Source: Methanocaldococcus sp. (GTDB lineage Archaea > AGJL01 > Methanococci > Methanococcales > Methanocaldococcaceae). From it: a DNA stretch of 59,809 nucleotides. Position numbers and translations under genes: made by a program. The notes under the pieces are model-generated. The model had not been told where the DNA came from and ran no database searches. It saw only the letters and a list, made by a program, of their open reading frames with translations. Numbering within the stretch: the first letter of the stretch is position 1; every line of letters begins with the position of its first letter. This document shows, one piece after another, positions 38,743 to 47,159 of the stretch. The DNA is taken from contig NZ_JACCLX010000003.1 of assembly GCF_024490875.1 (NCBI RefSeq), positions 1 through 59,809 of the forward strand. The letters run 5' to 3'.

Positions 38743-40365
38743 ATGAAAACTGATATTCTAATTATAGGTGGAGGAGGTTCAGCAGTTAGAGCGGCAATAG
38801 AATGTAGAAATAAAGATGTTATAATAGCAGTAAAAGGATTATTTGGAAAAAGTGGATGCACAGTAATGGCTGAAGGAGGTTATAATGCAGTATTTAATCC
38901 AAAGGATAGTTTTAAAAAGCATTTTTATGATACAGTAAAAGGTGGAGGATTTATAAATAACCCTAAATTAGTGGAAATATTAGTAAAAAATGCTCCTAAG
39001 GAACTTTTAAACTTAGAAAAGTTCGGCTGTCTATTTGATAGGGATGAAAATGGTTTTATAGCTCAGAGACCTTTTGGAGGGCAGAGTTTTAATAGAACAT
39101 GTTACTGTGGAGATAGAACTGGACATGAAATAATGAGAGGTTTGATGGAATATATATCAAAATTTGAAAGGATTAAAATCTTAGAAGATGTTATGGCAAT
39201 AAAGTTAATTGTAAATAATAATAGATGCTATGGAGCTATTTTTTTAGATTTGAAAACTGGAGATATATTTCCAATATTTGCAAAGGCAACAATATTGGCA
39301 ACTGGAGGAGCTGGACAACTCTATCCTGTAACATCAAATCCTATTCAAAAGGTTGGAGATGGATTTGCTATAGCATATAATGAAGGAGCTGAACTTATAG
39401 ATATGGAAATGGTTCAATTTCATCCAACTGGCATAGTGGGTTCAGGAATCTTAGTTACAGAGGCTGTGAGAGGAGAGGGAGGAATACTATATAACAAAAA
39501 TAAAGAAAGATTTATGGCAAGATACGACAAGGAAAGAATGGAGTTATCCACAAGGGATATAGTTGCAAGAGCTATTTATAAAGAGATTCAAGAAGGTAGA
39601 GGAGTTAATGGAGGAGTTTATTTGGATGTATCCCACTTACCTAACGAAGTTATTGAGAAAAAATTAGAGACAATGCTTAAACAATTTTTAAAGATTGGAA
39701 TTGATATTAGAAAGGAGCCAATGATTGTCTCTCCAACCGCTCATCATTTTATGGGAGGTTTGAGAATTAATGAAAAATGTGAAACTAATATAGAGGGATT
39801 GTTTGCTTGTGGAGAAGTTACTGGTGGAATTCATGGGGCTAATAGATTAGGAGGAAATGCCTTGGCAGATACTCAAGTTTTTGGTTCTATCGCTGGAAAA
39901 TCAGCAAAGGAATTCGTTGAAAATTGTGAATTTGAATATATTAATGTAGAGGATTTAATTAAAGAATTTAAAGAAGAAGTAAATGACTTAGAAGGAAATT
40001 TAAATCTTTACAATTTAATTAAAGATTTAAAAAAAGTAATGTGGGATTATGTATCTATTGTTAGATGTGAAGAAGGTTTAAAAAAAGGTCTAAAAAAAAT
40101 TGAAGAAATTGAAAAAAATATAAAATATGTTAAAGTTAGTGGAATAATTGACATGCAAAAATATTTTGAATTAAAAAATATGATTACCGTTGCTAAATTA
40201 GTTACAAAATCAGCCTTGTATAGAGAGGAAAGTAGAGGAGCACATTATAGAGAAGATTATCCAGAAAGTAAAGAAGAATGGAGAGGAAATATAATTATAA
40301 AAGATAATAAAATATGGTTTGAAAAGGTAGATTATGATGTTGATGAATATTTAAAGAGAATTTAA
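38743..40365 (+). CDS. tfrA: Thiol:fumarate reductase subunit A / fumarate reductase flavoprotein
   Basis: A 540-residue FAD-dependent flavoprotein of the SdhA/FrdA family. FAD motifs: ILIIGGGGSAVRAAIEC at the N-terminus with MAEGGYNAVF (the covalent His position is not conserved as HSxAA here), ILATGGAGQLYPVTSNP, and HPTGIVGSGILVTEAVRGEGG. Active site HHFMGGLRIN and GEVTGGIHGANRLGGNAL. Methanogen TfrA with TfrB reduces fumarate with coenzymes M and B in the incomplete reductive TCA pathway. TfrB is not in this window. Confidence 0.9.
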   Translation: MKTDILIIGGGGSAVRAAIECRNKDVIIAVKGLFGKSGCTVMAEGGYNAVFNPKDSFKKHFYDTVKGGGFINNPKLVEILVKNAPKELLNLEKFGCLFDRDENGFIAQRPFGGQSFNRTCYCGDRTGHEIMRGLMEYISKFERIKILEDVMAIKLIVNNNRCYGAIFLDLKTGDIFPIFAKATILATGGAGQLYPVTSNPIQKVGDGFAIAYNEGAELIDMEMVQFHPTGIVGSGILVTEAVRGEGGILYNKNKERFMARYDKERMELSTRDIVARAIYKEIQEGRGVNGGVYLDVSHLPNEVIEKKLETMLKQFLKIGIDIRKEPMIVSPTAHHFMGGLRINEKCETNIEGLFACGEVTGGIHGANRLGGNALADTQVFGSIAGKSAKEFVENCEFEYINVEDLIKEFKEEVNDLEGNLNLYNLIKDLKKVMWDYVSIVRCEEGLKKGLKKIEEIEKNIKYVKVSGIIDMQKYFELKNMITVAKLVTKSALYREESRGAHYREDYPESKEEWRGNIIIKDNKIWFEKVDYDVDEYLKRI

Positions 40366-40374
40366 AAAAGGTTT

Positions 40375-40434
40375 GGCTCAGCTGCGGGAGTAGTCATCAT
40401 ATACAAATCAGATAGCGAAATTGTCATCATCGCC
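40375..40434 (-). ncRNA. Box C/D guide sRNA (2'-O-methylation guide)
   Basis: Read on the minus strand: terminal stem GGC, box C AUGAUGA (40430-40424), a 12-nt guide CAAUUUCGCUAU, box D' CUGA (40411-40408), a 7-nt linker, box C' AUGAUGA (40400-40394), a 12-nt guide CUACUCCCGCAG, box D CUGA (40381-40378) and closing GCC. Both guides being exactly 12 nt is the archaeal standard. The D' guide is complementary to UAGCGAAAUU, a conserved 23S domain IV sequence; the N+5 rule points to the C of UAGC. The D guide would pair with CUGCGGGAGUAG; no target is recognised. A TATA-like TTATAAATAG lies about 30 bases upstream at 40470-40461. L7Ae, the core sRNP protein, is encoded at 50012-50365. Confidence 0.9.
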
Positions 40435-40460: not shown

Positions 40461-40480
40461 CTATTTATAATTTTATATAA
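40461..40480. promoter_or_regulatory. Back-to-back TATA boxes between the C/D sRNA and the PP-loop gene
   Basis: On the minus strand TTATAAATAG (40470-40461) is placed correctly for transcription of the C/D sRNA. On the plus strand TTTTATATAAG (about 40471-40481) ends 15 bases before the ATG at 40496, and no GGTGA site is seen there, which fits a leaderless or nearly leaderless mRNA. Assigned by spacing only. Confidence 0.45.
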
Positions 40481-40495
40481 GTTTAGGTTATAAAT

Positions 40496-41293
40496 ATGGA
40501 AATAGAAAAAATTATTGAAGAAAAAATAAATAAAAAATTGATTGAATTAAGATTAAAAAATTCTTTGGAAATTTTAGAAAAATTAAATTTAAATAATAAT
40601 GTAAAATATGCTTTAAAAAATATGCTTTTAAGGAGATTAAATGGAGAAAAGGATTTTTATAAAATCTCTATTGAGGAAGAGAAAAAACCAAAATCTGTAA
40701 TTGCATTCAGTGGTGGAGTTGATAGCACAACATCCTTAATAATTGCCAAACAAATATTTAATGTAAAGGCTGTTTCTTGCTATTCAAAATATATAATAAC
40801 TGATGATATGAAAAAAAATATTAAAAGTTTGGCTAAACATTTAAAGGTAGATTTGGAATTTATAGACATTGATTTAGAAGATGTTTATAAAAAGGTTGTT
40901 GAGGGGAGATTTCATCCCTGCGGTAGATGTCACAAAATCATTGAAGAATCTGTTTTAAATTATGCAAAGAAAGTTAAGGTAGAATTTGTTATATTTGGAG
41001 ATTTATTAGCGTTTGGATATCTATCACTATATAAGATAGACAATAATATTTTTAGGTTTAATTTACCTTCTTTTTTTGCTCTAACTAAGGATGAAGAAAG
41101 AGAGATATTAAAAAATAATAAAATTTTTATAAAATCATCTTATGGTTGCCCTTTGCTAAAAGTTTATCATAAATACAATAGAGGATATAAATTTTCAATC
41201 CAAAGAATATTGAGAGAAGTCAGAGGGAGAGTTATTAGTGAAGAGGAAGGATTTAAAAATATAGTTGAACTTATTGAAAATTTAGAGGATTAA
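40496..41293 (+). CDS. PP-loop ATP pyrophosphatase, function unknown
   Basis: A 265-residue protein with an N-terminal helical region (1-60) and a PP-loop VIAFSGGVDSTTSLIIA at about residues 65-81. A CGRCH motif (FHPCGRCHKIIEESVLNYAK) and a later Cys (SSYGCPLLK) could bind a metal. This resembles the archaeal ExsB/LarE-like ATPase group that activates carbonyl or carboxyl groups or transfers sulfur. The start has no obvious Shine-Dalgarno site. It is followed 18 bases later by pssA. Confidence 0.75.
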   Translation: MEIEKIIEEKINKKLIELRLKNSLEILEKLNLNNNVKYALKNMLLRRLNGEKDFYKISIEEEKKPKSVIAFSGGVDSTTSLIIAKQIFNVKAVSCYSKYIITDDMKKNIKSLAKHLKVDLEFIDIDLEDVYKKVVEGRFHPCGRCHKIIEESVLNYAKKVKVEFVIFGDLLAFGYLSLYKIDNNIFRFNLPSFFALTKDEEREILKNNKIFIKSSYGCPLLKVYHKYNRGYKFSIQRILREVRGRVISEEEGFKNIVELIENLED

Positions 41294-46982: not shown

Positions 46983-47058
46983 TGGTGCGCCGGCCGGGAT
47001 TTGAACCCGGGTTGCTGGCTTGGAAGGCCAGAGTGATACCAGGCTACACCACCGGCGC
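46983..47058 (-). tRNA. tRNA-Gly (anticodon TCC)
   Basis: Folds as a full cloverleaf on the minus strand: acceptor GCGCCGG/CCGGCGC, D arm, anticodon stem CTGGC/GCCAG with loop CTTCCAA (anticodon TCC), T arm with GGTTCAAATCC, discriminator A and an encoded CCA. No intron. It follows the tRNA-Gly(GCC) gene after 25 bases in the same direction, probably as one transcript. Confidence 0.97.
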
Positions 47059-47083: not shown

Positions 47084-47159
47084 TGGTGCGGCCTCCGGGA
47101 TTTGAACCCGGGGTCCGGGCGTGGCAGGCCCGTGTGTTACCAGGCTACACCAAGGCCGC
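47084..47159 (-). tRNA. tRNA-Gly (anticodon GCC)
   Basis: Cloverleaf on the minus strand: acceptor GCGGCCT/AGGCCGC, anticodon stem CGGGC/GCCCG with loop CTGCCAC (anticodon GCC), T arm GGTTCAAATCC, discriminator A and an encoded CCA. No intron. It is the promoter-proximal gene of the glycine tRNA pair. Confidence 0.97.

Follow-up and report, generated by a model that had tools for sequence, protein, structure and literature searches.

What is encoded on the minus strand of the short intergenic gap at positions 40375-40434, and on what does its product act? The gap lies within the window, here meaning the whole 59,809-nt stretch of Methanocaldococcus DNA that was analyzed, between a flavoprotein gene (38743-40365, plus strand; FAD_binding_2 and Succ_DH_flav_C), called tfrA in the initial annotation, and a QueC/NAD-synthase-like PP-loop gene (40496-41293, plus strand), so that the element is on the strand opposite to both of its neighbors. 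It almost certainly encodes a double-guide box C/D sRNA of the sR39 family, predicted to act at two 23S rRNA sites flanking helix 69. We take this helix to span about positions 1906-1924 in E. coli numbering; the two sites, equivalent to E. coli G1906 and C1934, would then bracket it. The parts of the locus are as follows.

40375-40434, minus strand: box C/D guide sRNA of the sR39 family (Rfam RF01122, matched over 40376-40434)
40424-40430, minus strand: box C, AUGAUGA, invariant in 14 genomes
40412-40423, minus strand: D' guide, CAAUUUCGCUAU, pairing with 23S UAGCGAAAUU; N+5 at the equivalent of E. coli C1934
40408-40411, minus strand: box D', CUGA, from the sequence and a 14-genome comparison
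40401-40407, minus strand: spacer (k-loop), UUUGUAU, differing in sequence and length from one relative to another
40394-40400, minus strand: box C', AUGAUGA, from the sequence and a 14-genome comparison
40382-40393, minus strand: D guide, CUACUCCCGCAG, with 23S GCGGGGGUA as best conserved target; N+5 at the equivalent of E. coli G1906
40378-40381, minus strand: box D, CUGA, from the sequence and a 14-genome comparison
40463-40469, minus strand: TATA-like TATAAAT, centered 32 nt upstream of the RNA 5' end

Read from 40434 to 40375, the minus strand is GGCG-ATGATGA-CAATTTCGCTAT-CTGA-TTTGTAT-ATGATGA-CTACTCCCGCAG-CTGA-GCC, and the four boxes, two 12-nt guides, and GGC/GCC ends described in the initial annotation are all present exactly as claimed. 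Boxes C and C' agree with RUGAUGA and boxes D and D' with CUGA, in the correct order, with a 7-nt spacer between D' and C' and with each guide directly upstream of its D or D' box, at the upper end of the 10-12 nt typical of such RNAs. Complementarity to a stable RNA extends over the N+5 position for both guides, strictly for D' (as read on the 23S rRNA of relatives) and by a relaxed rule for double guides in the case of D. A scan of both strands of the window with a strict four-box pattern (C-N9-15-D'-N1-16-C'-N9-15-D) returned this single match. The minimum-energy folding of the sRNA was no better than that of shuffled sequences (z 0.36), a null signal that is to be expected, since the fold of a C/D sRNA depends on non-canonical pairs and on protein.

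Using cmscan, the window matched RF01122 at 72.1 bits (E 1.2e-15) over the full length of the model (positions 1-56), relative to a gathering score of 50 bits. The RNA is, therefore, a member of an already catalogued family and not new in kind. An RF01122 search gave a single hit per genome in 14 Methanocaldococcus genomes, the window's own among them, and no hit in the 22 genomes from the sister family, the other family of the order; the control genome of Methanocaldococcus jannaschii was also positive. A phylum-wide search gave no genomes beyond these same 36. Twelve of the 14 genus copies passed the curated cut-off in the genome search, and the other two (L046 and L047), at 48.6 and 48.4 bits, pass the gathering score when run by cmscan. 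Scanning named genomes for the exact pattern also located sR39, with both guides present, in four contigs of Thermococcaceae, all of them Rfam-confirmed; these copies share the D' guide, and their D guide differs by compatible changes. The sole bacterial match to the pattern (L048, Bacteroidetes) comprised the first half only; lacking a second guide and unmatched in Rfam, it was attributed to chance.

The initial annotation had staked its reading on conservation of the boxes in related genomes, and such conservation was found: boxes and guides are kept throughout the other 13 Methanocaldococcus genomes and in Thermococcaceae. In the full set of 14, the boxes never vary except at the first base of C', the guides differ at few positions, and the spacer ranges from 4 to 13 nt (counting the first C' base). 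The surroundings of the gene are fluid. While a convergent flavoprotein gene is retained 3' of the sRNA in nine genomes of the 14, the gene upstream varies among relatives and includes SufB/D-like, HNH-like, cation-ATPase-like, PP-loop, and other genes (of these, SufB/D and PP-loop were checked against Pfam, and HNH-like and cation-ATPase-like were assigned by eye). Retention of the RNA while its neighborhood changes argues for a function of the RNA itself. It also bears on the suggestion that the boxes came together by chance in intergenic DNA. The motifs are indeed short and the region is AT-rich, but no such arrangement arose in 60 Markov-simulated windows, the Rfam E-value is far too low, and conservation of the RNA through changes of genomic neighborhood refutes the idea, leaving it a practically negligible probability.

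Relative to the Rfam family, the window RNA has the same boxes and D' guide, but its D guide differs, though only by C/U changes in the paired core (UACUCCCGC versus UACCCUCGC in RF01122) and at end positions, and its D'-C' spacer is three nucleotides longer. RF00095 (snoPyro_CD, the Pyrococcus C/D family) resembles it in general anatomy but not in its guides, and its score of 27.7 bits falls below the gathering score of 45. Other archaeal double-guide C/D sRNAs are alike in having two guides, 23S targets less than 100 nt apart, and a hotspot at helices 68-71, with no notable difference from the window RNA (PMC4644070). It should be mentioned that the label sR39 covers unrelated RNAs: the "sR39" of Methanopyrus kandleri targets 16S rRNA at C122 and G152 (PMC4644070), whereas the sites discussed here for Rfam's sR39 are in 23S rRNA. 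In the literature searched, no published targets were found for Rfam's sR39.

In archaeal C/D sRNAs, the methylated nucleotide lies opposite the fifth guide position upstream of D or D', and guides are 10-12 nt long (PMC7994747). The 44-contig assembly of the window's own genome contains neither 16S nor 23S rRNA despite 99.78% completeness, probably reflecting a gap where the rRNA operons should be, and targets were therefore read on relatives' 23S rRNA. These comprised 13 archaeal sequences, nine from Methanocaldococcus (full-length) and four from Thermococcus; 23S rRNA is missing too from the Thermococcaceae genomes with sR39, and the Thermococcus sequences come from congeneric genomes rather than from the sRNA-bearing ones. 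The D' guide forms 10 contiguous Watson-Crick pairs with UAGCGAAAUU in 9/9 Methanocaldococcus and all four Thermococcus sequences, placing N+5 at a C exactly equivalent to E. coli C1934, just as first proposed. Of 150 shuffled D' guides, 3 were equally good against the rRNA of relative G005.

For the D guide, to which the initial annotation assigned no target, the best conserved one is 23S GCGGGGGUA, which lies 28 nt upstream of the D' site and offers nine contiguous pairs, placing N+5 at a G that corresponds to E. coli G1906. The segment containing this target core, CGGCGGGGGUAA, is identical in 13/13 archaeal 23S sequences. On it, the guide core of most Methanocaldococcus (UACUCCCGC) and that of Thermococcus (UACCCUCGC) each make one G-U pair, and the core of G002 (UACCCCCGC) is all Watson-Crick; since the core differences are all C/U opposite G, pairing is never lost. 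When Watson-Crick pairs were scored 1 and G-U pairs 0.5, every tested Methanocaldococcus and Thermococcus 23S rRNA had a common D site scoring at least 8.5 and at most 100 nt from the D' site. When every guide was permuted in the same way, none of 500 shuffles reached a common D site this good less than 100 nt from the D' site. The G1906 duplex, with nine contiguous pairs including one G-U in most genomes, sits at the low end of published criteria: it agrees with the relaxed double-guide rule (PMC4644070), and nine Watson-Crick pairs, as in the strict rule, occur only in G002. In double guides, the two sites are usually less than 100 nt apart, and G-U pairs are then tolerated; helices 68, 69, and 71 are listed as hotspots of methylation (PMC4644070). 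Judged from pairing, the D guide probably directs ribose methylation at the G1906 equivalent, less certainly than the D' guide would at C1934.

A different 23S segment, CUGCGGGGGUAG, could instead be the real target of the D guide in this species, which would make the RNA a guide with two distant targets. This segment (positions 1318-1329 of the G005 23S rRNA; E. coli about 1200-1211) would place N+5 at a G corresponding to E. coli ~A1204. Two close relatives, G005 and G006, share the window's D guide; in both, the segment forms 11 Watson-Crick pairs and one G-U, better than the G1906 site, and 0/150 shuffled guides equaled this pairing in G005 rRNA. The guide is conserved, however, while the pairing has at least one mismatch in 7/7 other Methanocaldococcus 23S sequences and is absent from those of Thermococcus. 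Replacement of the G1906 site is thus unlikely, and CUGCGGGGGUAG (~1204) may serve as a second D-guide target in the window species.

It is very unlikely that the D guide is an orphan or is directed to tRNA, with the D' guide alone functional. Orphan guides are common enough, accounting for 28% in Pyrobaculum (PMC7994747), but conservation across the 14 genomes is equally strong for the D and D' guides, and the D guide recurs in Thermococcaceae with the C/U core changes described above. Its tRNA matches, moreover, were no better than those of shuffles (52/300; 30 of 34 tRNAs examined). One tRNA match (score 10.0) owed its strength to bases preceding the 5' end of the tRNA; with mature tRNAs, it dropped to the shuffle level.

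With G1906 and C1934 as the preferred targets, the sRNA would be transcribed from the minus strand and fold so that boxes C and D form a kink-turn and C' and D' a k-loop. By analogy with the family, L7Ae would bind both, and Nop5 and fibrillarin, each encoded in the window's own genome, would then join. The particle would pair with 23S rRNA on both flanks of helix 69, at sites separated by 28 nt, where fibrillarin would methylate the ribose of the C1934 equivalent (D' guide) and, less certainly, that of the G1906 equivalent (D guide), and it may help with folding around helix 69. It is quite unlikely, albeit conceivable, that sR39 is mainly a clamp or chaperone that pairs with both flanks at once and keeps helix 69 open or isolated during 50S assembly; such a role would account for both guides, and not the neighborhood, being kept across two archaeal families. 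As a double guide, the RNA is foremost a clear-cut and automatically detectable member of a known Rfam family, and a likely D-guide target is the only addition to what is known of sR39. This addition is modest, presenting sR39 as a double guide that would bracket helix 69, an intersubunit-bridge helix. Equally modest is the example provided of a guide RNA gene retained while neighboring genes change.

With regard to expression, the initial annotation had noted a TATA-like box at the right distance. TATAAAT is present at that distance, but the upstream region is not common to relatives, and a promoter role for 40463-40469 is thus uncertain and without support from conservation. No more than about 20% of C/D sRNA genes in archaea carry such a motif (PMC7994747). 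In two relatives, G012 and G009, box C, the D' guide, and box D' are also read as protein, giving the C-terminal ...GDDENFAI in two unrelated products, one SufB/D-like and the other a phosphopantothenate synthetase, with the stop codon inside box D' (locus L012, with the sRNA at 1501-1555 on its minus strand, and locus L013, 1501-1527). Archaeal C/D sRNA genes are known to overlap the 3' ends of protein genes in this way (PMC7994747). Finally, two adjacent tRNA genes are found elsewhere in the window, at 46986-47058 and 47087-47159 on the minus strand.
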